A DNA stretch of 64,000 bases. Origin: Macrocystis pyrifera (lineage: Eukaryota; Sar; Phaeophyceae; Laminariales; Laminariaceae). This document shows positions 699 through 60,538 of this stretch, in pieces. The position numbers and the translations under genes were made by a program. Location: assembly GCA_031763025.1 (NCBI GenBank), contig JASSKH010000016.1:868001-932000 (forward strand), read 5' to 3'. Below the pieces are notes generated by a model, which did no database searches, was not told where the DNA came from, and saw only the letters and a list, made by a program, of their open reading frames with translations. The stretch's first letter is position 1. Each line of letters starts with the position of its first letter.

Positions 699-1404
699 AA
701 GCAGTTCCGCCGTCTCCGTCTAAGACACAGAGTGCTGCTGAACTATGACGGCGCTTGTGCTGGGACTGTCTGAGTTTTATATATATATTTTTTTTTAATT
801 ATTTGCCTTCTGACAATGTGCAGGGCGTTATTCATTCAAGATGAAAAAACTAACATAATTCGTCGAACACCCTCAATTTTGTCCAACCTTTTCTCCTTCC
901 TTGCGTATACTCAATTGAATACGCACTACCTTTTACCGATATATTTTCACTGACTATGTATCTATACGCCCTGCGTCCTACTCCGTATCTACATTCCATC
1001 CCCACGCCATTGGAAGTAGTCCTCCCTCCTCCTCTCTTCTCCCCCTGGCGGCCTGTCGGTCTCGAAGGGCGAGCTTATATCGGTGCACCCGGCGCGAGAT
1101 CGCGACCTGGGTGGTCACCGATATGATCTGGAAAAGATGCTCCTTACAAACCCCTTTTCTTGCTAGAGATCCCCCGTCCGTTCCTCCGATGATGCTCGTT
1201 GCCAGCTGGTCAATGAAATCGCTGCCTTCCTTCCCGAGGCGTCCAAAGCTTTCCACCGCGAGGGTGACAAGTTTATGGCTGCGCTCGTCGAAGGACACTT
1301 GTCCTGCACGAGCGTAGTGGTTGCGCTTTCGCGCCTCGGAAGTGGAGGCAGCTGATCCGTCTCGATCAGCGCTGCCAGCCCGCATGTGGACTCTCGCTTG
1401 GGGG

Positions 1405-1676
1405 TCTGCGTGCGTGATGTCGAGGAGTATCGCCTTGTTACGGTACTCTGACGACGTAGCGTCTCGGAGGCCTCCCCTCTCGATCACTATATCCATGCGG
1501 AGGTTTCTGTCGGCGTTGAAGGGCGCTCCGCTTTCCGTTTGATGGCGGATGGACAACCGCTTGAAGGTGCGGGACAGCGCGTGGACTAGCGGCTGATGCT
1601 GGTTTACCTGCGCGCCTGCTCGGTGGCATGTGCGCGCGTGACGCGTGGTGACATCCGTCGCTTCGCAGCAGGGGCA
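1405..1676 (-). other. Zinc knuckle and restriction-like endonuclease of ORF2
   Basis: In the last ORF2 segment a knuckle CPCCEATDVTTRHARTC (C-x2-C-x8-H-x3-C, 1676-1626) is followed about 45 residues later by RMDIVI and AILLDITHAD, with acidic residues at about 1493 and 1421. This matches the order and spacing of the CCHC plus PD-(D/E)xK endonuclease of R2-type LINEs, which nicks the genomic target. The usual Pro before the first Asp is Met here, so the motif is slightly off consensus. About 130 residues of conserved-looking tail follow, and the tail recurs at 14.2 kb. Confidence 0.7.
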
Positions 1677-4342
1677 CCTCGTCGCTATGGGCTCCTCCAT
1701 TCCCAGAAAGCGCCGTCCCATAGACACGAACTCCGAAGCCGGTATGATTCGTGCCGTGTCCACAGGCCTTGCCCTCAAACAGGCGACAGCGCCTAGTCCC
1801 GATAGGCTCCGTTGCCGAGCCTTGGCAAGATCTCTGGTTTCGATTCCCCCGAACACGTCGTTCCGACTCGACGGGCCTGCTGCCTCGGGGAGCTGGTCCA
1901 GAGACGCAACGTACCGTTGGTACCGTACCCGGTTTACCTGCTGCCCCAGCTTGTGCTGCGCTTTGTGGGAGCTGATCGTTTGGGCTTCATGTGCTGGCAA
2001 TGCCTCCATATCAGACTGCTCTGAGACTCCTCCCTCGTTCGCGCGAAACACCCTGTTTCCGCCAGCTTTCCGGGACCACGTTCGCCATTGCCTCCTCCGA
2101 TACCCCATGGATGTCACGGAGGTCCCTGACGCTACTCCATATGCGGCGAACGAGGTCCGAATTGGGCAACTCCCTTCGGAATTTTCCCCCCAATGGGCCG
2201 GAGAGGTCAGCAAGGACCTCTGGCACCGTCGCCACTAAACTCCCAATGGACGCTGACATTCTCCTTGATTCAGCCGATGACAGTCCAAACCCCCCGGCCC
2301 CTGTGGAGAGGCTCGCCTGCGCTTTCTGGTGGGGCTGTAGCGTCAACCGGTTCGCCGGGCATCCGTCCGCAAAGAACGGCGATTCGTCCGCTATCCCTGG
2401 AAGCTCGAGAAGGCGCTCGAGCATCCATATTGCGCTATTGTCTGCCCGCTGACACGCGGGTAGTGACAGCTCCGGGTCCATTACCCGCTCAATGTAGGAG
2501 GTCCGCTTCACCATTGAACTGGTGGCGATGAGGTTCGCCGACTGTTTGTCCGGCAACGCGGCAGGATGCGCGCGAGTTGCTCTGCTCCCCCATCTCGGAC
2601 TATCTCGACGGCGCTGTTCACCGCGAACGCATCAGTGCCTATGGGCACGCCAACCACCTTTACCCCACCCCCTTCCGCAATGCGGACACCTATGCCCCCC
2701 AGAAGTGCTATCTCTTCCGACGTAGGCACATGCCCTTTTGGAGGCAAAGCAACCGTCTTGCTGGGGTTAATTGCAACACCTATTTCGCACAGCTCGTGCT
2801 GGAGAAAGGGCACTACTCTCACCGTGTCCGGTGTAATCTCTGATATACCGATGCTGATGTCATCAAGGTAGGCAAAGGCTTCAACACCCCGGGGTTCAAA
2901 CTCCTCACGGACCCGTTTGAGTATTGGCAGCAGTGGCATGCAGAACAGCGCCGGTCCCATGGCATCCCCTTGCTGCACTCCACTGGAGCAGTCAATTTTA
3001 CGCCGCTCCCCCGAGTCCATCTGGAAGAACGTAGGGGCGGGCCTCTCGCCGAGCATTTAGCAATGAACGGCGTGAGCGCGGGCACGCAAGTGGCCGCCTC
3101 GGCAAGTACTGCCGTCCGCTTTACAGTGTTGAAGGCGTTGGAACAGTCGGTTAGGATGAGCCAGTTTCTTGCCTCATGGTGCACCCGGGCGCGTAGAGCT
3201 ACCTGCTCCACCCCCCCCTCGAACCCCTACCCCAAACTGTCTTGCCTCACGAATAATCTCTTCCAGCCGTGGCCGCCACTGCCGCATAGTCCCGGCTGCT
3301 AGAAGACGTCTCCATGTCATACCTACACATACGGGGCGACATTTTTCCCCCAAGGCAGTGAGGTTGGACTGCAAGAAGAGCTGCCAGAATTCCGGCGGGA
3401 ATGCACCGGGGTCGTCGAAGATCCGCCTCCAAAAGGCCTCGATGCTAGCTCCAAACTTCTCGCGACCGAAGCCGGTCCTGATGACCGACTGCAGGTGTGA
3501 GAAGCGTAGACCGTCACTCCCCGCGCCTGATAACGCATTTCGTGAGTTGATGACGTCGAGGGCCACCTGCGAATCGAACTCTTGCTCTGGACGCCAGTTG
3601 GGAACACTTCCTTCCTCCGGTTCCGTGGAGCTTGCTGCCACCGCGGCCGCTGCCGACTCGGAGATGGAGGCACGATCTTCCCCCGGGAATTTGGCTTTCA
3701 CCCGCTCCCATGTCACCTCGTTGCCGGGCGCTCGCGCTTCCGCGAGAAGACAGCGTGCTGCTACTGACACCCCGCCCGAGTGGCGACAGGCTGACGACGC
3801 TCTCTCGTACTTAGCCGCGTCTGTGGCTTCGTAGGTTGGGGCCCCTAAGCCGTGACGATGCTCGGCTGGTGTACTCCATCAACCACGGGAGAATAAGCGT
3901 GATGTCACCACGTTCGACGGACGCGAATCTCTCGCGTCGCTTCACGCGGCTGTCCTGCGAGTGTAGCAGTGCTGGCACGATGTACCACAGCTTAATGGCC
4001 CTCAGGAGCGACCTCGGCGTCTCTGAGTGTCTGTTTGGCCAATGCGCTCCGAGGGCGTGGTTCAGGAGACCGAGCACGTGGGTGAGAAGCTTGGCGTGGA
4101 CAGTAGCTAGCCCCGGCTGTACCTTAACCACGGTGATGAAACGTTGTTGGAGCTGTTCAAGAGAAACATCATCTAGTGGCCCTGCTATTCCTAACGAATC
4201 CTGGTCCCACGGGTAGCAAAGCTCTTCCCTCCGTTCATCGTAGTTGTTGTCCTGCCTTCCTCCAAGTCCTGCGACCGTGACACGGAGTCCAGGATCAGCC
4301 TGAACCGCTGCCTCCAGTGATTCCCGTCTCCCATGGCGGGCC

Positions 4343-4495
4343 ATGCACCCTCGTGTAGCGCAAATGAGTTGTGCGTGTGACCCACTCCTTCGGATAGCTT
4401 CCACCACACACCGCGCGTGCATAACGTGCTGGTTTCCACACGGCAGCCCTACCACTCGGTGCCCCCGAGCGATTGCCGATCGACATCCCCCGCAC
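4343..4495 (-). other. RING-like module 6, N-terminus of ORF2
   Basis: The cysteine/histidine pattern is C-x2-C (CGGC), then C-x3-H-x2-H-x2-C (LPCGNQHVMHARC), then C-x4-C. This is a cross-brace RING-like order, with the last pair spaced more widely than in classical RINGs. R2-type elements normally carry C2H2 fingers at this position, so a RING-like fold here is unusual. Ubiquitin-ligase activity is inference only. Confidence 0.55.
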
Positions 4496-4956
4496 ATCAC
4501 GCCGTCTTGACTGGCGCCAATGCATGCACGGAGTCGCCCTACGCTCCCCGACGCTGATCCTCCCCCCTCGCTACCTTCTCCTTCCCTGGGGAGTTCTCTC
4601 TCTTCACCACCGCTCCCTCTCGATCCAGGATCCGAACGAAGCTCGCTGCCCCCTCTCGATCCAGGAGTCGAGGGCGACTCGCTGCCTCCTCTCGGTTCAG
4701 GGGCCGAGGGCGGCTCACTGCCGTCGGGTCGAGGGATTCTTTCCCGGTTCGTGACGGCCCCTCTCCCAGTGCTTGTCGCTCGTGACCCCCTCCCAGACCC
4801 CCGCGGTCGGCCCCGTCCGCCTCTTGTGCCACCCCCCTCCCTGGCTGCGCTACCAGGTTCAGAGGGAGTATCTCCAGGTGTTGCTGGGGTGGCGCCGGAT
4901 GGTGTCATGGGCACCCTCAAGCATCCCGGTGGCGTGACATCCCTGTCTCTGGATGT

Positions 4957-7900
4957 TTAAAGGTTTTCCATGGCTACTACAGCAGCATTTCCCTGATCTA
5001 CCTGCCCCCTTATCCGCGAGTCGCCCTCCGACGCCAGAGCTTCTCCTCCCAGCGGTGTCGTTTCTGCCGCCGGAGGCAGAGGCCGCGCAGCACTTGGACA
5101 GGGACCTCCAAAGTTTGCCCCCATTCCACCTTGGCCGTCCTCGAGCGAGGGCGATGCGCTTCCAGCTGATCTAGGAGACGTTGCCGCCGCAAATGTTGCA
5201 GAGGCGGTACTGGGCCTTGCCTGAGGGATCTCCACTTGTCCCGCTAGCGCGGCATCCCTACCCCCCTCGGTGTGGCGGCTTTCTATGGCACTCCTAGCGG
5301 CGCCTTCCTGTTCCACCTGCCCCCTAGTTTGCGGATCGCTTTCCGCCGTCGGGACCGTTTCCTCCGTTGTAGACACCGCCGCCGTCGGAAGAGGAGTCAA
5401 ATCGTCCCCTACCCCCAACGCGTTTTGGGCCCCGGGGGTCCACTCTGCCGTCGGAAGAGGAGGTAGCGCATCACCTGCTTGCCGCACGTTTAGTACCCCG
5501 AGGGTGCACCTGGTCAGGGAGAGGCTGGATGTTGTCCGGGGGATTCCCACTTGTCCCGCTGACGTAGCGTCCCTGTTTCCCGCGGCCTGACGATTCTCTA
5601 TGGCATTTCCAGCATTGCCGTCCTGATCGTTATGCCCCCCTGTTGATGGCTCGCTCTCCAGCGCCTGGCCCGTCCCTCCTAGCGTGTCTGCCACTGTCGT
5701 CGGAAAAGGAGGCACCACGTCACCTGCCTCCAATGCACTTCGTACCCCGAGGGTCCACCTAGTCAGGCGTTCCTCCCATTCGGCGTGGAGGCCTGCCAGA
5801 AACTCCTGGACGTGTGGTGGGATGTAGATCCTCCGGTTTGGGAGTCGGAGCATGATATCCCGTGGTTGGATGGCATGCGCGGCAAAACGCTCACGGTAGT
5901 CTGCGGCGGCCGCTTGCCATTCCCTCGTGCGGGGGAAGTCGAGGTACGCCGCTCGAGGCATGCCCAGGGCATCGCTGAACAGGGAGCACAGCAGGAACGA
6001 AGAGGTTGGGCTCTTTCCATGGGTTCTCACCATGTGCTCGAACGTGGGTGATGACCAGTCGTCACATAACTGGCCGGTACCAGATGGGTGCCCTCCTCCT
6101 CAAGAAGTTCGGCGAACTGCAGGGCACCTCCTACTGCCGGCCACCTTCCCCCCGGCCGGGGTCTGGGAAGATCCTCAGTCAACTCTGCCGGATGGGGAGG
6201 TCGGGTTCTTACCGGCCATTCAGAGCCACACTCGACGCATGGCTGCGGGTCTGTGTGTCCACATGCGAGGCGTTCCGCACGATCCAGCATGCAGCCGGCG
6301 TGTACCAACTGTCTGTTGTCATGGTCACAAGTGATGGTTGTCCACAGATGATCGACCTCTGGATTCCTGTCTGAGTTTTGTATGTCCTCACCGCAATAGG
6401 TACATAGGCCTGCTAGCGCGGTGTCCGTTGTGGTCTCACGACTCTCTGTTGAACCTGGAGCGGCGCCTCTCTCTTCAGGCTGCCCCCTTGCTAACCGGTT
6501 GTCCCCCTGCGCTGAGTCCACTCGCTCCGGTGGGGCCGCCACCGCCGTCGGGAAAGGAGGCAGTGCGTCACCTGCCTCCAGCGCCCTTTGGACACCGAGG
6601 GTCCACCTCGTCAATCGTTCCTCCCATTCGGCGTCAAGGCCCGCCAAATACTCTTGGACATGAGGTCCAATGTAGAGCCTCCGGTTTGGGAGTCGGAGTA
6701 ATATGTCCTGGGGTCGGATGCCGTACGCTGCGAACAGCGTCTGATAGTGGGCGGCCGCCTCTTCCCATTCCCTCGTGCGGGGGAAATCGAGGTAAGCTTG
6801 TTGCGGTAGATCCAGCGCATCGCAGAATAGGGAGCACAGCACGAACGAAGAGGTTGGGCTCCTCCCCAGGGCACTCACCATGTGCTCGAGCGTGTTGTGA
6901 ACCCCGGTCGTCACGTAACTGTCTGACTCCGCGCCGAGGTCACCCCGCTCAAGGAGGGCGGCGAACTGCAGGGCACTACTCACCGCCGCCCACCTCCCCC
7001 CCTGCTCGGACATGGGCAGCCCTCTGGCAAGTTCCGCCGGGTGGGGAGGCCTGCCCCCCTCTGGCCACGCAGATTGGCACACTACGCAGGACCTCGGGTC
7101 GGCATATCCTCTCGCGATTCGATCTGCCCGGTCCAGCATGCAGCGTGCATGCACAAACCCTCCGTGGGCGCACGGGATAGGTATTCGCACGTGGCTGCCC
7201 CCCGACTCTCCAGCAGAGTCATCTAGAACCTGGCCGCAATAGGTGCACGATGTTTCGACGTCATCTCCCCTCCCTCCTTGCGCTTGTTGGCGGCTTTCAT
7301 CCTGGCTTGTGGCCTCCTCCATACCCGAATTCACCGATCGCCATAGGATTTCCAACTGACGCTGTTGATAGGCTCCCCGGTCGGAAGCGCGGTCGTACCT
7401 CAGATGGATCTTCGGCAGAATTTCCGCGAGGAGGAACGTTCTCCGCCGCGACGGTCCTGTCCCTTCCCGAATGGCCACCCCAAACCGGTCGTCTCCCCTA
7501 TTGTCTGCCCCCTCTACGCTTTCAACGGCGCATCTCCTGTGGACGAGCCAACCGGAGAAAGAGAACCTCTCGTCGTCTTCCATATTCCTATCGCAGACTC
7601 CACATAGCGCATACGGTTGTGGAATCATGCTACGCCAGTCCCAAGAGAGGTTCTCCTCGTCTCGCGCTGTGGTATTCAGTGTCCGATCCACCCTTTCGGG
7701 CACAATGTGGGTCCTGCTCCGAAGGCGGTTCTCGGCAACGGTGACCCTGTTCACTAAATCGCGTTCGTCCTGTGTGTCCGCCGGCCTGCCAATGGTACGA
7801 ATCTGTTGCAAGAGGGGGTGTAGGTCCACCTCTTGTTGAACTTCGTGTAGGGCGGGGTTCGGGCACGTGACTAACCGTACCTCGCCGATGAATCTGGCTC

Positions 7901-8390
7901 GAGGGAATGCGTCCTCGCAAAAGCCTAGAGCGCAGCGGCGATGCACGTCGCACGAGCAGGACACCTGTACGCGTTCAGCCTCCTCAACCAGTCCATGGCA
8001 GATACTACATATCAATCGTTCGCCCCTCTCGCCCCCTTCGATCCTTGTGGATGCCCCCCTTCCCCTCTCGGCCGACATCTCCTGCCGCGCGGTCGCTAGG
8101 GCCTCTGCTATGATCTCGTCGCTGTGCTGACGGGACGCCATCCCGTCGGCTTCACCAATTGTTACGGTCGCCCGACACGTCGGGCAGCGCAGGTCGGCCC
8201 CTGCCCTAACACGAAGTGCGGCGTAGCACGGTAGATGCAGCCGGTGAGAGCAGTTCCCTAGATTTACCATCGGGGCCACCAATGCCTCGTAGCATACGCA
8301 GCAGTCTTCCGAGGTCTCCTGCTGGGGCTGCCCCTCTTTCTTCTGGCGTCTGCAATGGTGGCCGTGGTAGAGATGGCGGTGGTTCGGACG
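4957..8390 (-). pseudogene. ORF1 C-terminal part: five RING-like modules
   Basis: Two open segments (8390-6027 and 6033-4957) are joined by one frameshift. Module 1 (8303-8175): C-x2-C, NCSHRLHLPC, CPTC, close to a classical RING. Module 2 (about 8009-7863): ICSIC ... SCSCDVHRRC ... C. Module 3 (about 7604-7530): CGVC ... HRRC, half a module. Module 4 (7247-7077): CTYC ... PCAHGGFVHARC ... CVVC. Module 5 (6404-6228): CTYC ... TCDH ... HAGC ... CVEC. Modules 4 and 5 belong to an 843-bp tandem duplication and are each followed by a conserved helical block of about 120 residues (AYLDFPRTREW, LPNRR.YI.PHVQE, EWEERLTRWTLGV). Modules 4 and 5 have H-x4/6-H, slightly longer than typical RINGs. The C-terminus (5.6-4.96 kb) is low-complexity with short TLGV..AGD..PPLPTA repeats. 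RING proteins usually recruit E2 ubiquitin-conjugating enzymes; here that is inference. Confidence 0.7.
5562..7247 (-). repeat. 843-bp tandem duplication inside ORF1
   Basis: Unit A is about 7247-6405 and unit B about 6404-5562. The CTYC cysteines of the two copies are 281 codons apart, and both copies carry the same order: RING-like module, GGRW(A/P)AV..ALQFA.LLE, YVTTG, SPTSSF.LCSLF.DAL, helical block. In unit B the stretch between YVTTG and SPTSSF (6030-6067) is one base shorter than in unit A (6880-6917). That deletion explains the frame break between the two open segments. Confidence 0.8.
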
Positions 8391-9055
8391 TCAGCGCGGG
8401 TTCCGAACTTCCTCCATCCTGTGTCGGTGTGCACGTCGGTTGTAATGAACTTGGTGGCGCCAACTGCGGCATTCTAGCCGCTGACTGTGTTGACAATTCG
8501 AGCACTAGGATCACGTCCGGCGTCAAAAGTGGTGCGCCTGTCGAGGGACGGGTAGTTGTCGGTAGCCGCCGTGGCGGGGGGTGGTGGCGACGGCGGCGAA
8601 CATTCCATGGCGGGTACTCCAAGCGGAAGGGGGCTCGTCAAGGGAGTCCCCGCACCCGTTGCCGTCGGTGATTGCGTAGTTTCTCGCGCCCGCTGTGCTG
8701 AACGGGGTGTATCCGGAGATGGTTCCGGCGACGACGGTGCCGTCTCCAAAAGTGTTATCGATGACGAAGGCTGCGTCGTTGTTGGCTGTTGACGGGAGGA
8801 TCCGTGGAGCGGCTCGGTGGGAGGTTGGCGTCTTTCTTCCTGCTCCGATGATCGTGCGGCGGCCCTAGCGGCTATTCGGGTGCGTGCCCTTGTCCTGGTG
8901 GATATAAGGTCCTCTGTAGGTACCCTCCTCGTGGCCCGCCGCCGTTCGACTATTGATATTACCGCCCTTGTGGACGGTCCGAGTTCCGCCGCCGCCCCGT
9001 TGGGACCTCTTCCGAACATGGTACCGCTATTGGTGCGATGGAGGCTCCCTCTCAC
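8206..9055 (-). pseudogene. ORF1 Ser/Pro/Thr-rich linker, frameshifted
   Basis: Two overlapping minus-strand segments (9055-8474 and 8622-8206, different frames) encode low-complexity Ser, Pro, Thr, Ala and Arg sequence with no stops, between the repeat region and RING module 1. No domain is recognisable and disorder is likely. Changing frame near 8.55 kb and again near 8.35 kb carries the reading into the first RING. Position and strand make it part of ORF1. Confidence 0.5.
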
Positions 9056-9077
9056 TTCTACCCTATCTCTCTCCGTG

Positions 9078-11037
9078 CTAGGCGCATCGTCCTCGCGCGG
9101 CGTCTCCTCCTGAACGGGGGGGGGGGACGACCGCTCTTGGGTCTTGAGAGCCCTGTGCCGCCCCCATTGGTAGCGGAGAAGGAAACCCTACCCTAGTGCG
9201 AGCTCCGCCATCGATGAGAGCTGCCCCGCACCCCAGCTGGCTCCTCAGAGGTGTGAGTCCGCCCAAGCCTCCCCTCCGGACAAGGCTCCCAGCAGCAACA
9301 CGAACGTCTTGAGACATCGGGTTTAGGTCCCGGGAACCCGGTTCCGCACCCGGCGGTAATGGGGGAGAAGACCTCACCCCACTTCGAACGACATCTTCGA
9401 CGGGGAGTGTACGGTACCCCTGCTGACTCCTTGCGGGCGTGCCCCTCCTCCAAAGCCCCCTTCGGGCTAGGCTGCTCGCTCCACGACGTGCATCCTGCGA
9501 CTCAGGGCTCGATTCCAGAGAGCCCGATGCCGCATCCGGTGCCATCTGCACAGAAAGTCTTATCCTGTTGTGGGCACCATTGCTGACCCGGGGTGACAAG
9601 TACCCCTGTTGGTGCCTCTCCGACGTGGATCCCCTCAAAATCCCCGGCTGGGCGAAGCTCCCGAGTCTACCGTTTGCCCTCCTGTTCCCCGTCGGCGTTG
9701 GCCCACCTACTCTCACTCCCAAACTAGCTCTCGCCGTAGTGCTCTCATTTCCCCCCTGGGGTGCCTCCTCCGGAACGTGTTCAACATCCATTGGGTCGCT
9801 GGGCCTTTGGCGTTGCTGACCACTCCTTGCTCTCGAACGGGGGAGAAGGCAGACCGCTCTTGGGTTCTGAGAGCCCGGTGTCGCCCCCAGCGTCATCGGG
9901 GGAGGAAGCCCTACCCTCGTAGGAGTTGCACCGACGTTGAGGGCTGCTCTTCCCCTATTGTGACCCCTCGTAGTTGAGGGCCCTCTCCGAACAGAACTCC
10001 CCGCTGCAATACGAGCGTCGTGAGACCTCGGGTTCAAATCCCGGGTGCCTGGTATCGCACCCGGCGGTAGTGGGTTAGAGGACCTTATCCGGCTTTGAGC
10101 GCCACCTCCCCTATTGTGACCCCTCGTAGTTGTGGACCCCCTCCGAACAAAGCTCCCCGCTATAAGAGGAGCGTCTTGGGACCCCGTGTTCAAATCACGG
10201 GAGCCCGGTAACGCACCCGGCGGTAGTGGGCTAGTGGATCTTATCCGACTTGGAGCTCCGCCGGCTCTGTTGTGACCCCTCGTAGATGTGGGCCCCCTCC
10301 GAACAAAGCTCCTCGCTGCAAGGTAAGCGTCTTGCAACCTCGTGTTCAAGTCCCGGGAGCCCGGTATCGCACTCGGCGGTAGTGGGCTAGGAGGCCTTAT
10401 CCGACTTTGAGCGCCGCCACCAGCGGGAAGTGTATCGTGTGGCGAGATAGGGGCGCATCTTCTTTCCTCATCCATTGGCGAAGGGCTCTGTCGTCGTGTG
10501 GTTCCCCCCCCCTGCGCATTGAGCAGTGTTCGGCGACCCGTGGCGTCCACAGAGGCTGTTTCCGGCCTGAGAGCCTGCTATCAATCGAGAACCACCCTCC
10601 CTCCTATCTGTTCTAGTACTCCACGCTCTAGCAATGGCTATGAGTTCTGAGAGAGTCACTGACGGCTGCGGGCGATGGGCCTGGACGGTTGGTGCTCTGC
10701 GAGGCACCAACGCCTGCTGGCTCCGGGTATCCTCGGTAGACGTAAACTGAAATCGCTGGTGCAGGCGCATCGACTCCTCTGTTGGAGGGGAGGTAGCTCG
10801 TCGCCGGTGCCCCAGGATCCCTGGCCGGATCGAGGGTGGAGAGTTTGTGATGCTCCCCCCAGAGGGGAGACGGTGCCTTGGCCGTGAACTTGGTCGGGGC
10901 GAGGGACGATCCCCTGATGCTGTCCTACCCCGCCGGATCCCGATGATGTGGGGTAAAGGGGGGACGTTTCTCCCTATCGTCGGCATCGACCGTGAACGGT
11001 TGGCTCGGGCGTCTTGCGCCCCCTCTCGATGCGCCAC
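9078..11037 (-). pseudogene. ORF1 middle: 52-residue tandem repeats, Arg-rich
   Basis: The 10550-9078 segment (about 490 codons) contains at least three clear copies of a 52-residue unit (RIRS.NPLPPGA.PG.RDLN ... FVRRG.TTRGHNR) and more divergent ones. The 11037-10468 segment, in another frame, repeats a block also present at the end of the upstream segment (ASGDRPSPRP, GILGHRRRATSP). The composition is basic and disordered, as expected of an RNA-binding ORF1 region, but no fold is recognised. An 11-G run at 9116-9126 lies just where the frame must change into the linker. Confidence 0.55.
9950..10420 (-). repeat. 156-bp tandem repeats within ORF1
   Basis: Near-identical units are marked by TTCAA(A/G)TC(C/A)CGGG(A/T)GCC at about 10,031, 10,187 and 10,343, exactly 156 bp (52 codons) apart. 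More divergent copies continue toward 9.1 kb. The period is a multiple of three, so copy-number changes keep the frame. Confidence 0.75.
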
Positions 11038-12581
11038 CGCCTTCGGTATTGGGTATCATCGGCAAAGGTAACCGGAGGTCGTTGACGCGTGCGTGCCGTC
11101 CTCCCTGACAGAGGGGAGGTAGATCGTTGCCGGCGTCCTAAGAGTCCCGGCTGAGGTGGGGGCAGAGTGGTGATGATTCTTCTTCCCGAAGGCGATGGCG
11201 AGCGGTGCGTCGAACGCGCCTGTGGGCGCGGTGAAGGCCGATCGCCTGATGATGCCCTATCCCGCCGGACCTGGAAGACAGATTGCAAAAGTGGTTCGGT
11301 CCTACCCCTCCTCGGCACTGGCCTTTGCGACGCCTGCTGTTGGAGGCCTCCCAATGTAGGGGCTGGTCTCCTCCCCGCACTCGTCCTTACCGGGGTATTA
11401 CTCCTTCGTCCGCGTTCCACCTGCGGCGGGGTCACTGCTAAGCGCATTGTGGCTGTCGTCGACGGCATACCCTCACCTTGCTGCTCCCCATTCAATCCCT
11501 GCTGTTGCAGCCCCCCTATCGCGAGGGCTGGACCTCCCGTCTGGGGGCTCGCACGCCTCGCACGCCCTACCGGTGGCGTAACATCTACTAGACACCTCCC
11601 GTCTACTGCAAGTGCCTGACCCCCCTCTTGCTGCACCTCGCTCGCTTGTTCGCCCCCTACCGACAGTGGGGCCATCGCAGGTACTGCACTAGTCGATACG
11701 CCTGTCTCTCGCTGCCCAAAACAGTCGGTTTCCGGCCCCGCCCTTCTCGGCACGGGGGTCGCGACAAGGATCCTTGGCTGCATCCATGCCGGGAGAGTCC
11801 TGCCCCGCCCTCGTCCGGCTGGTAGTGGGCAAAAAGATAGGGCTGTTGTTGCACTTGCGGGCTGTGCCGCCATCGCAGACACTGCACTAGTCGATCCGCC
11901 TGTCTCCCGCTGTCCGAAACGCTCGGTTTCCTGCCCCGCCCCGGTTGATTCTTGTTGCTGCAACCCTCCCGGTACGGGGGTTGTGTCAAGGATCCTTGGC
12001 TGCATCCATGCCGGAAGAGTCCTGCTCCGCCCTCGTCCGACTGGCAGTGGATAAAAAGATAAAGCTGTTGTTGCACTTGCGGGTTGTGCCGCTGTCCCAG
12101 GTACTGTACTATTAATAGTCGATACGCCTGTCTCCCGCTGCCCAAAACAATCGGTTTCCGGCCTCGCCCCGGTTGCTGCTTGTTGCTGCAACCCTCCCGG
12201 TACGGGGGTTGTGTCAAGGATCCTTGGCTGCATCCATGCCGGAAGAGTCCTGCTCCGCCCTCGTCCGGCTGGCAGTGGATAAAAAGATAAAGCTGTTGTT
12301 ACACTTGCGGGTTGTGCCGCTATCACAGGTACTGCACTATTAATAGTCGATACGCCTGTCTCCCGCTGCCCAAAACAATCGGTTTCCGGCCCCGCCCCGG
12401 TTGCTGCTTGTTGCTGTAACCCTCCTGGCACGGGGGTTGCGTCAAGAATCCTTGGCTGCATCCATGCCGGGAGAGTCCTTCCCCGCCCTCGCCCGGCTGG
12501 CAGTGGACAAAAAGATAGGCCTATTGTTGTGCTTGCGGTTTGTGCCGCGGTTTCTATGGGGAGGTCGCTGCCTTCCGACAT
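10974..12581 (-). pseudogene. ORF1 N-terminus: four ~75-residue repeats
   Basis: The ATG at 12581 opens about 535 codons to 10974. Four tandem units carry PLPAGRGR.RTLPAWMQPRIL, TPVPGGLQQQ and ETDCFGQRETGVST motifs. Downstream follow Arg/Ser/Pro-rich sequence and a block (SGDRPSPRP ... RRQRSTSP) repeated in the next segment. The region resembles RS-rich or nucleic-acid-binding disordered proteins, but no domain is recognisable. The open reading frame extends slightly upstream of the ATG through a 10-bp-stem hairpin. A second frame (12217-11657) is open over the same repeats only because the units are periodic. Confidence 0.55.
11780..12560 (-). repeat. ~225-bp tandem repeats within ORF1
   Basis: AAAAAGATA followed by GGG/AAA-CTGTTGTT marks units at about 11,825, 12,047, 12,275 and 12,502. 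Spacing is 222-228 bp, all multiples of three or close to it. Each unit encodes one copy of the AWMQPRIL/FGQRETG module. Confidence 0.75.
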
Positions 12582-12584
12582 GAC

Positions 12585-12612
12585 GGGCACCCTCACGGAC
12601 GCGAGGGTGCCC
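12585..12612. promoter_or_regulatory. Perfect hairpin just upstream of ORF1 ATG
   Basis: GGGCACCCTC and GAGGGTGCCC are perfect reverse complements separated by 8 nt. On the minus strand the hairpin ends 3 nt before ATG 12581. The same decamer GAGGGTGCCC (4918-4909) directly abuts the ORF2 ATG at 4908. A role in translation initiation is inference. Confidence 0.45.
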
Positions 12613-12619
12613 ACACTTT

Positions 12620-14190
12620 CGCAACCCTAAACCAACCAACCCCCCTTTGGTGAGCGTGGTGCGCACTTAATTTTATTCCGTGACGGTGACGATTGCAGCT
12701 TCTTCCTCTTTCTCCTATTGCAACGTGTCCTTCTCCTAGGGTTTTTGTATATTAACCCCTTCTTGCCTTTCAGGTTCGACGTACCGAGTTTCCTCTCCCA
12801 GTGATGTGGGTATGTAGATTGCTGCTGCTGGACTCTCCCCTACTCCCAGCAAGACGATAACCTCTGTCAACCTTCCTTCCCCACGTTCCTTTCCCCCCAG
12901 CTCATTCCCAACCCTGTTTCGCCTCTCCTCCCTTCTCTCCCGAACCTCAAAACCCGTGCCTAGCCCGTAGGAAGATAATTGCACTGCGTTGAAATTTCGG
13001 CCTTGCAACAAACACTGCCGATCGTGCTTGGTCCGTCTGCTCCGTTTTATTTTATTTTGTACCCGGTACCAGGTATATTTTAATTATTTTTACTTTTATT
13101 TATATCGGCGTTCCTGTAACCCCTTACCTCCTCCGCCACACTCTCGTCCAGCTCCGCTGCAATTCCTGACCCCACTCGAAGTACAGCAGTCTATGCGTAC
13201 GACCAGTGTAAACCTTCCTGGTGGATGATCGACGATACTCGTATTAATAGAAGAAACCGTCGTAAGATGAATTAAAAAAAATATATATATACCAGTATAT
13301 ATAGGAGAGGAAGAAGAAGAAGAAGAAGGCTCGTCCAGCTCAACCAAAGGGCTAGAAAATAGGCCTGGTACCTCAATAAATATACGATGTCTTCCGATGC
13401 ATCGTTTTCGTGTTGTTGTGCTTCCCCAGTATTATCCTCACCCCACTTGAAGCTTCTTCCACACGAACTTAGAGCACCTCTCGAAATGCTCGTTGCGATG
13501 GAAGATGGAAAAGCCACCCGAAGATATTTGCAGAGGAAGGCTCAGGTGCATGAGGGCGAGAAGAAAGATACCCCGATAAGAGAATAATAAAAAGGGTATG
13601 TCGACCTATACTATCCCGTACACGACGCGTTTTTTTTTTCCGAACATCTACGCGGTTGTTCCACGGTCAGTAGGTCCCAACTTGGACTGACCTTTAGGCA
13701 GGCGGACCGTAGCACAAATGTGTTTGCCACCGGCTTCCAACCGGCTGCTGCTTTTCTTCGTTTGCCCGTGCGTTTTCTTTTAGGAAGACCGAAGAAAAGA
13801 CTCGAAGACGAAAAGACACATGGAAAAGGATATCTAATTGGTGTACGCCGTCCGAATACAACAGTGTCCACGATCTTTTCGTGGAGCCCAAACTGGGCTG
13901 GCTCACCGCATCACAGGTTGGTTTACCACCGACCGCCTACCGACTGCTGCTGTTGTAGATTTTCCTTCACCCCCGTCCTCCTCCTCCCTTTTGCGCTTCG
14001 AGTTGTATTTATTATACCCCGAGCTCGTCGTACCTGATGTTATATATATGTATCTTCGTGCTCGTATCTTTCAGCCCTTGCTCGAAGTCGCTTCACTCGG
14101 CCGTTCGTACGAGTTTATCTCACCACCCCATCTACCCACGTCACGTTGGTTGGCACGATGACTGTCAGCCTTCCGACTCCTCACCGATTA
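12620..14190. other. Region upstream of the retrotransposon
   Basis: A minus-strand open stretch at 13011-12736 lies directly upstream of ORF1 and could be 5' leader or an extra small ORF, but has no recognisable motif. 13,270-13,330 holds AT and GAA microsatellites. The rest contains no feature I can support. Confidence 0.3.
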
Positions 14191-14193
14191 ATA

Positions 14194-14411
14194 GCCTCGC
14201 GGTCCTTCGGTGCCAGTTTGCACCGGTGCACTAGGCGTGAGATCGCGACCTGGGTAGTCGCGGAGATTACTTCGAAAAACCGTTCTTTGCGGACGACGCC
14301 TTTTTCCTCGCCAAGGACCCCCCGCCCGTCCCTCCGACGATCCTCGCCACCACCACCTACTTCCTACCTGGTCAACCAGGTCGCCGCCTTCCTTTCAGAC
14401 GTGCCCAAAGT
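14194..14411 (-). mobile_element. 3'-terminal fragment of a related RT element
   Basis: The plus-strand sequence GAGATCGCGACCTGGGT and the following CCCCG(T)CC(C)GTCC(C)TCCGA and GTCAA..(A/G)GTCG blocks match 1,097-1,250, the C-terminal tail of ORF2, in the same orientation. The frame is not preserved. This is a second, older or diverged copy of the same family, 1.5 kb from the full element. Confidence 0.75.
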
Positions 14412-14607
14412 TACACGTACAACAGTACAGGCAGTATGTATTTTTTTTGTCTTGAAGTTCATGTGGAACTTTTCATAAAATGTGATGACGTCGCAATTAG
14501 GCACCCGATATAGCTCCTCGGAACAGGCCAGATGTGGGCTACACGCGGGGGGGTATACTCTTCTTGTGTCTTCGTACTCGTAAGGTTGAGCCCCTCGGTT
14601 CAACAGC

Positions 14608-14740
14608 ATTGCGTTCCTTTGGGTGGGGTATCCACAGACAAGAGTTACACACACAGCGGCGGTGTCAGCATTATCTTTGTTTGGGTGGGGTGTGCACAGA
14701 CAAGCTGCTACGGCATGGCTGTGATTTTTCGTTTTATATA
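14608..14740. repeat. Dispersed repeat, copy 2 (see 325-423)
   Basis: GGGTGGGGTATCCACAGACA and GGGTGGGGTGTGCACAGACA flank an ACACACAGCGGCGGTGT block, as in the copy near position 325. Confidence 0.6.
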
Positions 14741-14835
14741 TTTTTATTTTTTCCCCCAACGTAGCGCATGGCTCGAGCTACGGCACACCACCTCATGCCT
14801 CTGGCGCGAATGCCTACATTGCGAGGGTTGAAAAG

Positions 14836-32189: not shown

Positions 32190-32905
32190 CTGGGAGTAGG
32201 CGCCGTGGCACGCTGAGGTGCTTACTCTTGCCGACTCGATAGCGAGAGATGCGATAGCGAGCAGGGACAAACGAGCGACGGCTGGTTGGCACTACGGCCA
32301 CAACAAGCAAACAGGATTTAATCCCGGACGAACGCCGTCGAAGACAACTGGTTGAATTCCCGGACCGCGTCTACCGTAGTAGACATTAGGGAGTAGGCGC
32401 CGTGGCACGTTGAGGTGCTTACCCCTGCCGATTCGATAACGAGAGTTACGATAATGGGAATGGACAAACGAGCGACGGCTGGTTGGCACTACGGCCACAG
32501 CAAGCAAACAGGGTTTAATCCCCGACGAACGCGGTCGAATACGACGGGTTGAATCCCCGGACCGCAACAAGTAGACATTAAGGAGTAGGCACCGTGGCAC
32601 GCTGAGGTGCTTACTCCTGCCGATTCGATAACGAGAGGTGCGATAGTGAGAAGGGACAAACTAACGACGGCCAGTTGACACGACGGCCACAGCAAGCAAA
32701 CAGGATTTAATCCCCGACGAACGCGGTCGAATACGACGGGTTGAATCCCCGGACCGCAACAAGTAGACATTAGGGAGTAGGCACCGTACCACGTACTTAC
32801 TCCGGCCGATTCGATAATGAGAGATACGATAATGAGAATGGACAAACGAGCGACGGCCAGTTGGCTCTACGGCCACAACAAGCAAACAGGGTTTATTCCC
32901 CGACA
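32190..32905. repeat. ~190-bp satellite array
   Basis: GGCACCGTGGCACGCTGAGG-type starts at about 32,200, 32,396, 32,587 and 32,777 give four units of 190-192 bp. Each contains GGCCACA(A/G)CAAGCAAACAGG followed by two boxes of (G)GGTTGAATCCCCGG or GTTTAATCCCCGAC, which resemble Pol III box B. Degenerate extensions continue to about 33,650. Confidence 0.85.
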
Positions 32906-32944
32906 AAAAAAAAATCGTTCTACGATCCAGGTTAACCCTATTTT

Positions 32945-32971
32945 CTGGAGCTCCTCACTTAAGGAGCTCCA
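32945..32971. repeat. Perfect 9-bp stem hairpin
   Basis: GGAGCTCCT and AGGAGCTCC are separated by CACTTA. A TTTTCTGGAGCTCCTC-like block recurs near 53,400, and a GAGGCTCCCTGAGGAGCT block near 55,530, so this is part of a small hairpin family. Confidence 0.6.
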
Positions 32972-33085
32972 TACCCTACCCTAAAACTGAAAAAAAAAAA
33001 CACACACACACACGTTGAATCTCGATGAATACTCCCATGGCCCAAGTATACTAAAAAGTCAATTTCGAAACAAGATTGGCATTCC

Positions 33086-33341
33086 GACGATTTTGGGCTA
33101 AGGAACCCCCGTCAAGCAGATTTTTTTTTTAGCGGAAATGTTTCACTTCTAACGTAGAACGCGTCCGAACGGGGTCGAATACACCGGGTGAATCCCCGGA
33201 CCGCGACTAGTAGGACGATTTTGGGCTAAGGAACCCCCGTCAAGCAGATTTTTTTTTTAGCGGAAATGTTTCACTTCTAACGTAGAACGCGTCCGAACGG
33301 GGTCGAATACACCGGGTGAATCCCCGGACCGCGACTAGTAG
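33086..33341. repeat. Exact 128-bp tandem duplication
   Basis: The unit at 33,086-33,213 (starting GACGATTTTGGGCTAAGG and containing T10) is repeated with no difference that I can see at 33,214-33,341. The identity, including the T10 run, points to a very recent event or an assembly duplication. Confidence 0.9.
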
Positions 33342-36280: not shown

Positions 36281-36441
<161 letters not shown>

Positions 36442-37869: not shown

Positions 37870-37980
37870 CTATTACGGGGAACCACCCTAAATAGGACTA
37901 AATATTGCTAGCAAAAATAGGGATTTTTAAGGGTTTTTGTGTGTACCGTAGGTCCTATATACTATGGTTCCCCGTAATAG
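37870..37980. mobile_element. Hairpin MITE family A, copy 1 (111 bp)
   Basis: TIRs of about 29 bp: left CTATTACGGGGAACCA..., right ...TGGTTCCCCGTAATAG, with GGAC/GTCC at the inner ends and an AT-rich centre. Flanks read GCACT(T)C and GCACT(A)C, a possible 7-bp duplication with one mismatch. Relatives lie at 60,230, 60,539 and 56,7xx. Confidence 0.75.
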
Positions 37981-38433
37981 CACTACATATAGCGCCCAGC
38001 ACACTCGAGGGATGGGTACGTTTCTCAAGAAACCTCTTGTACCTGGTATGTTCTACTGCTACATGTGAATGTGTGGTAGTAGCGGTTCGATAAGATCTGT
38101 GCTTTGTTTGGTATGTACCTCTCGAAGCGGGGACAATGTTACAATGTTACCCGCATAATTAACGGCGGGATCGTGCGGGACCCACCACCACCACCATACG
38201 ATCGATTCGTGCGGAGTCGAAACGCAACAGCAACATCAGCCGATGAACGTCGCGCGGTGCAGTTTGCGTCGAGCAGGCAGTAGTAGTGGCTTGTTTGTAC
38301 GCGTGTAACAGACGGCGGTTCCATCCCTTGACTGACTTGCCCTTTGTATTCACCTGAACAGCATACCAGGTAGTAAGGGTATGGCCAGAAGAGGCCTTGA
38401 CGGGCCAAAAAATACGGTTCGCATGTACCAGGG

Positions 38434-55744: not shown

Positions 55745-56140
55745 ACAATGGCTACCAGTTACCATGGTTGTCAGTCACCATGGTTGCCTGTTATCATGGT
55801 TGTCAGCCATAATAGTTGCCAGTTACCATGGCTGCCAATGAGGATGGTTGTCAGTTGCAATGATTGCCATTAGCAATGTTTGTCTGTTACTATGGTTGTC
55901 AGTTACAATGTTTGTCAGTTGCAACGGCCGCCAGTTGCAATGGTTGACAGTTACAGTGATTGTCAGTTGGAACGGTCGTCAGTTGCAGTGGTTGTCAGTT
56001 ACCATGGTTGTCTGTTTCATTGATTGTCGGCAACAATGGTTATCAGTTCTTATTGCTGATGATTGCAATGGTTGTCAGTTACCATGTTTGCCAGTTACAC
56101 TGGTTGTCAGTTGCAATGATCGTCAGTTGCAATGGTTGAG
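55745..56140. repeat. ~21-bp minisatellite (GGTTGTCAGTTACCAT)
   Basis: About eighteen units of ATGGTTGTCAGTTACCATGG type with substitutions, ending in a C16-C17 run at 56,143. Confidence 0.9.
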
Positions 56141-60229: not shown

Positions 60230-60339
60230 CTATTACGGGGGACCACAGTAATAGGACCAAATATTGTTTGTAAAAATAGCGAAATATATAGGTTTTTATG
60301 TGTACCGTAGGTCCTATTTAATGTGCCCCCCCGTGATAG
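60230..60339. mobile_element. Hairpin MITE family A, copy 2 (110 bp)
   Basis: Left CTATTACGGGGGACCACAGT, right ...GCCCCCCCGTGATAG; the shared interior includes AGGACCAAATATTG and GTGTACCGTAGGTCCT. Confidence 0.75.
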
Positions 60340-60538
60340 CCATCTACATGCCTGTAGGATTGTGAGTAAGTAGCCGACTTAAGTACTAATTGGCGAAATC
60401 ATTTTTTTAAGCCAGCTGCATCAGGTAATTTGAGGAGTTCTACTCGTGCGTTTTTTTTTTGTGTCTGACAGCGCAACGTCCGTTTGTGGCTGGAGGCGGT
60501 TCTTTAGTGAGGAAAACGAAGTCAGGTAGTTGGGTAAC

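Follow-up and report, generated by a model that had tools for sequence, protein, structure and literature searches.

The window studied here, 64,000 nucleotides of the giant kelp Macrocystis pyrifera (contig JASSKH010000016.1, positions 868,001 to 932,000), raises the question of how a series of RING-like fingers has come to lie in front of a reverse transcriptase (RT), and whether the two belong to one mobile element. Every feature of the element is carried on the minus strand: six cysteine/histidine (Cys/His) modules, here called A to F, are followed by RT motifs, a CCHC zinc knuckle and the residues of a restriction-like endonuclease (RLE). The best overall explanation, to which we assign a probability of roughly 0.6, is an R2-like RLE long interspersed nuclear element (LINE) that would encode one giant protein, with a RING array performing an E3 ubiquitin ligase step. 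Of its identity as an RLE LINE with RING modules we are nearly certain. LINEs depend on escape from host silencing and on host repair, and a LINE protein with RING-type fingers under purifying selection would be a direct and testable link between a retrotransposon and the ubiquitin system. The element also shows to what extent the single open reading frame (ORF) of the R2 type can grow.

A young family of mobile copies

The initial annotation proposed a genome search for other copies, and such copies are plentiful in the assembly (537 Mb in 223 contigs, with the window on contig C196). A query of 1,001 bases from the RING region was found at 35 places, the window included, at 94-100% identity and in full length (one over 1,000 bases) among the best 40 of 213 candidates. 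Ten other copies, each taken as an 18-kb stretch, were aligned to the window. In nine of them the 3' limit falls at window position 776-788, the tenth starting at 2150 beside N letters, and the 5' limits are spread over 14,252, 14,189, 13,756, 13,273, 12,361 (approximate, as it lies inside a tandem repeat), 10,934, 10,681, 8,046, 7,987 and 7,432. When the 3' end was used as query, scoring the best 40 of 1,206 candidates yielded 40 further rows, every one ending within 772-791. Compared by eye, the copies that were read differ from each other in their 60-base flanks and have an A/AT-rich 3' context; their 3' tails are A/AT runs that vary. Beyond the limits of the element, alignments of more than 300 bases link the first 20 kb of the window to only two of the ten stretches, through a further element piece in C219 and a repeat of 81% identity in C193. 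The hallmarks of elements without long terminal repeats (non-LTR) are thus seen in the copy alignments, the junctions and the 3'-end search: a common 3' end, variable 5' truncation and a tail. In the ~6.3 kb at the 3' end, each of ten copies (one of them the window) carries 1-33 private substitutions. The element is a young, many-copy non-LTR (LINE-type) retrotransposon family that has been recently active, and since its copies are near-identical it may still be.

Copy alignments, junctions and the searches with both ends place the window copy at 776 to 14127, possibly beyond, instead of the 790-12,700 first proposed. The 3' untranslated region of about 200 bases (776..977) ends in the variable A/AT-rich tail, as seen at the junctions of the copies and the window. 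For the 5' region, window 13000-14500 was used as query and the best 40 of 359 candidates were scored; nine rows of an older subfamily (77-80% identity) start at 14127, and ten rows at 95-98% identity start at 14159-14412. Among the rows scored, 14192-14410 recurs five times on contig C211 at 92-93% identity, and 14194-14278 is similar to the terminal part of the element's ORF (72% over 85 bases), and for these reasons the piece 14192-14410, located where the young subfamily has its 5' end, probably derives from the 3' end of a related RLE element. In Rfam, nothing in the window reached the gathering score, and none of the four weak matches in 12500-14800 is a ribozyme like that of hepatitis delta virus. 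The 5' flank of the copy on C138 (locus L014) ends, by eye, in a stretch that resembles the element's own 3' end, and this junction may reflect a template jump.

One giant open reading frame

The window copy looks like several ORFs because of frameshifts, and two had been proposed for the element. When the ORFs of the window and of the copies are laid over each other, their overlapping frames instead tile a single giant ORF of about 3,870 amino acids (978..12581, minus strand); in the window small frameshifts interrupt it, as does a single in-frame stop at 4957-4959. The tiled region is limited by a Met at 12581 and a stop at 978. The frames that tile it come from other copies and measure 1,369, 1,420, 1,444, 1,523, 1,255, 1,478, 1,594 and 1,397 amino acids; these copies are broken at positions that differ from those in the window, and the overlaps are 96.6-99.8% identical in 17 of the 18 pairs compared, the last pair hardly overlapping. 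In the copy on C209 the matches of RING A-C and of RING F with the RT are in phase within a reported stop-free frame of 3,002 amino acids, and likewise on C195 in a reported frame of 2,476. In the last 6.3 kb at the 3' end, ten copies, counting the window, show 43 indel events against the column majority, 27 of them of a single base and 26 adjoining a run of the same base; either assembly error or very recent decay fits. We conclude from the sequences that the element has the coding capacity for one giant protein of about 3,870 amino acids. An open frame of 3,891 amino acids at C219 was rejected as spurious, since it consists of an ACAT-type microsatellite plus N letters. That all the pieces form one element, as the initial annotation held, is borne out by the shared 3' end and differing flanks of the other copies, by an open frame that holds both RING and RT, and by a related protein in which the order recurs.

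The N-terminal region of the predicted protein is Arg-rich and holds two tandem coding repeats found with TRF, one of 228 bases (76 amino acids; 11748..12548, minus strand) in 3.5 copies, rich in Arg, Gly and Pro, and one of 156 bases (52 amino acids; 9951..10415, minus strand) in three Arg-rich copies. The region as a whole, and the part encoded by the 228-base repeat in particular, is probably disordered.

Reverse transcriptase and endonuclease

The RT, the C-terminal zinc knuckle and the endonuclease had been proposed to lie on the same strand, and all three were located there. The RT motifs NAFN, QQGD and YLDD lie in two frames in the window (2850..3353, minus strand), and RVT_1 matches with E 1.1e-10 in one window piece and 4.6e-15 in an unbroken copy; among PDB profiles the RT matches R2 best (E 1.6e-22), with LINE-1 at 7.3e-15. 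The knuckle reads C-x2-C-x8-H-x3-C (1626..1676, minus strand), and its last C-H-C is invariant in six relatives. According to PMC5678591, RLE LINEs have a CCHC knuckle CX2-3CX7-8HX4C between RT and endonuclease, compared with which the last spacing here is one residue short. The endonuclease core MD...LLD...K (1314..1502, minus strand) is marked by invariant D, D and K columns and by a fold match to R2: for a predicted model with a mean predicted local distance difference test score (pLDDT) of 69, Foldseek ranks 1-7 are all R2, whose chains align through model residue 1071-1077 and thus span the endonuclease region, at an overall root mean square deviation of about 20 A. By profile and predicted fold, both RT and endonuclease are R2-like.

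The Cys/His modules

Module A (8175..8303, minus strand) has the RING-H2 pattern C-x2-C-x13-C-x-H-x2-H-x2-C-x13-C-x2-C followed by Arg, includes a CPxC, and matches Pfam RING models with E 1e-5 to 1e-6. Taken alone it matches zf-RING_2 in the window family with E 7.5e-6 (26.6 bits); when the scan took in the full window ORF, nothing scored better for A than zf-ANAPC11, with E 0.032. In two older copies, L042 and L040, it passes the PF00097 cut-off of 21 with 22.2 and 21.2 bits. Deltex-2 (DTX2) came first among PDB profiles (E 0.007), and each of the ten hits with E no higher than 5 carried the name of a ubiquitin ligase, of Deltex-2, of a RING-type domain protein or of NSE1. Module F (4345..4494, minus strand), before the RT, has a RING-H2-like first half and C-x4-C in its second half, and matches zf-RING_2 (E 3.5e-4) and the PDB profile of RNF126 (E 0.02). 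We therefore class A as a predicted RING-H2 and F as RING-H2-like.

Module B (7845..8009, minus strand) ends in C-x5-H and keeps most of its Cys and His residues; a PDB profile search gave two unrelated weak matches. Module C (7530..7604, minus strand) has the four ligands C-x2-C ... H-x2-C and recurs in the older copies. B and C are best called zinc modules of unproven fold. Module D (7077..7247, minus strand), RING-like with C-x2-C ... C-x-H ... H-x2-C ... C-x2-C, recurs in the database proteins P0001, P0002 and P0008, and module E (6228..6404, minus strand) is its tandem duplicate, as seen from the D7 repeat and the alignment; PDB profile searches with D and E found nothing. D is followed by a domain of about 150 amino acids of no known family (6579..7001, minus strand), which had no Pfam match in P0001 and four weak PDB matches (best E 0.23), none convincing. 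Its duplicate follows E (5731..6152, minus strand), placed by ORFs, alignment and coordinates, and is interrupted by a frameshift in the window.

The six RING-like modules first described thus stand as six Cys/His modules, of which profiles identify A alone as a RING and, at lower significance, F as something near it; the profile check also proposed then leaves D and E weak and B without a match. What was called a battery of E3 ligase modules comes down to one or two candidate RINGs at best, the other modules being weak or non-matching.

Older copies, selection and related proteins

With RING A-C as query, 127 of 360 candidates were scored, giving 129 match rows whose identity ranges from 37 to 100%. 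In six older loci, read as 5-kb stretches, modules A to E recur in order and F was found in five. These loci carry stops, frame changes or lost residues, and all eight ligands of module A are kept in two of them, L040 and L042. Between the young family and the older loci the pooled ratio of nonsynonymous to synonymous change (dN/dS) is 0.14 for A, 0.11 for B, 0.07 for C, 0.18 for D, 0.24 for E and 0.08 for F, 0.26 and 0.25 for the companion domains and 0.20 for the part before the RT; with their common reference, the comparisons are not independent of each other, and in C and F dS approaches saturation. These ratios indicate that the RING-type fingers have been under purifying selection between the old and young families.

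Related database proteins repeat parts of this order. In P0001 a single frame covers D, E, F and the beginning of the pre-RT part; this protein resembles the older family here and may belong to the same species or a close one. P0008 (58% identical to the element over 27% of the query) joins the tail of module B, a D-type module with its companion domain, F and the N-terminus of the RT. Over RT and endonuclease the element is 74% identical to P0005, 55% to P0006, a protein of Ectocarpus sp. CCAP 1310/34, and 52% to P0007; in P0006 and P0007, both partial records, just the tail of F precedes the RT. Modules A and C were seen in none of P0005-P0008, all of which are partial. The viral contigs scanned gave no relative. 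Two distant RT relatives, P0012 and P0013, have by eye 2A-like motifs (ESNPGP and EQNPGP) upstream of the RT.

A possible mechanism and its rivals

The predicted protein would run from the Arg-rich region with its repeats through A, B, C, D and companion, E and companion, and F to the RT, the CCHC knuckle and the endonuclease. It would move by target-primed reverse transcription, the endonuclease nicking the DNA and the RT copying the RNA from the A/AT-rich tail, and reverse transcription would often stop early. This route is taken over from R2, as the element's nearest type; the tail and the 5' truncation are directly observed. The RING array would occupy the place of the zinc-finger/Myb motifs in R2-type elements, and A as catalytic finger, perhaps together with F, would recruit a ubiquitin-conjugating enzyme (E2), so that the element protein could ubiquitinate host proteins or its own at the target. 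Judged on sequence, the chance that A catalyses such a RING-type E3 step is slightly below even. D and E with their companion domains may bind partners, as we infer. More tentatively, we hypothesize that in one brown-algal lineage of RLE LINEs the N-terminus, formerly used for DNA targeting, has become a ubiquitin ligase with several RINGs that marks a host factor at the insertion site, such as a silencer, a nucleosome or a repair protein. If that were true, a transposon would bring its own ubiquitin ligase, nicking enzyme and polymerase to the target in one giant protein.

Several results weigh against this explanation. In the window family module A stays below the Pfam cut-off (26.6 vs 27.3 bits) and passes no RING cut-off, PF00097 being the one passed and that only in two older copies. 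B had no Pfam match in five members, C is a half module with four ligands and not a RING by itself, and D and E reach at best E 0.014 and 0.021, in one and two of seven members; the ligands of D are lost in P0001 and P0002. The Arg after the last Cys of module A is missing in L040, and the decayed loci L038, L039, L041 and L043 have each lost at least one ligand of A. An AlphaFold model of the RING region (A-E, four sequences) has a pLDDT of 34 and does not resolve the fold. A clear target-site duplication (11 nt) was present in one of nine copies; 72 mismatched-copy pairs, as control, gave 6 nt at most. The initial annotation had also named RING without RT, or RT without RING, as a sign of independent units. 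When RT and F were searched together (best 48 of 2,441 candidates scored), RING A-C lay 2.0-3.2 kb upstream on the same strand in 31 of the 48 matches, which agrees with one unit; none was listed for 16 and it was inverted in one. The 16 could be due to 5' truncation and an incomplete list of matches.

The main rival to the E3 step is a zinc array binding DNA or chromatin. The modules would then not be ligases, they would replace the zinc-finger/Myb region of R2-type elements and bind target DNA, RNA or chromatin, and the RING look of A and F would be structural only. The modules do lie at the position that zinc-finger/Myb motifs hold in R2-type elements (PMC5678591), B and C are without a RING match, and an Arg-rich N-terminus suits the binding of nucleic acid. 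Against it, both the young family and L042 show in module A the full C3H2C3 spacing with the CPxC and an Arg behind the last Cys, and the profiles that A matches best are those of E3 RINGs; we regard this rival as possible, short of probable. The RING part could also be gag-like or auto-regulatory, serving self-association, or ubiquitination of the element's own protein that limits its amount or releases the RT from a polyprotein. The tandem D/E units would suit this, and a single frame of about 3,870 amino acids, far longer than the solved R2 proteins, makes processing or turnover control plausible, but neither a protease nor a 2A-like peptide was seen in the element (in Pfam scans and otherwise by eye), and we think it unlikely. 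The simplest idea, that a host RING gene happens to adjoin an unrelated LINE, owes its appeal to the frameshifts that give the window copy the look of several ORFs. It is refuted by the copies, with 35 places of the RING region (window included) at 94-100% identity, 3' ends shared with the RT, one frame, and the same order in P0001 and P0008, and was rejected as hardly credible.

Comparison with known LINEs

With R2 and other RLE LINEs (R2, R4/Dong, CRE, HERO, NeSL, Utopia) the element has in common a single ORF, an RT, a linker with a CCHC-type knuckle (here one residue short in its last spacing) and a restriction-like endonuclease. The solved R2 proteins have 1,114-1,390 amino acids, compared with about 3,870 here, and the element differs from the R2 type in having a RING-type array instead of C2H2/Myb motifs. 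No C2H2 or Myb match was found with Pfam in ten window pieces and seven proteins, a scan that leaves the unbroken N-terminal frames of other copies outside. RLE LINEs are generally site-specific as a group according to PMC5678591, whereas the copies read here have flanks that differ by eye. The term "ring finger", as used in that paper, names a part of the RT. A limited literature search (titles and beginnings of abstracts) found no RING-bearing LINE, so that novelty in print is weakly tested.

NeSL and other LINEs carry ULP- or OTU-like proteases, and these elements and ours would thus both be linked to the ubiquitin/SUMO system, by proteases there and by RING-type fingers here; general Pfam scans of the window pieces and proteins gave no ULP- or OTU-like protease family. 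LINEs of the CR1/L2 group have a PHD finger in their ORF1, and the likeness is that a LINE has acquired a cross-brace zinc finger of a type found in chromatin or ubiquitin proteins. The difference is that CR1/L2 elements combine PHD, an apurinic endonuclease (APE-type) and a separate ORF1, whereas RING, RLE and a single ORF are combined here.

Other features of the window

The remainder of the window holds a 192-base tandem array at 32192-33341, with a perfect 128-base duplication slightly further on, a run of 154 G at 36284-36437 that is perhaps an assembly artefact, and, at 55745-56138, a tandem array with a 16-base unit in about 25 diverged copies. A dispersed repeat is present at 37891-37981 and 60250-60340, and, judged by eye, a relative of this repeat seems to be the insertion site of the LINE copy on C138.

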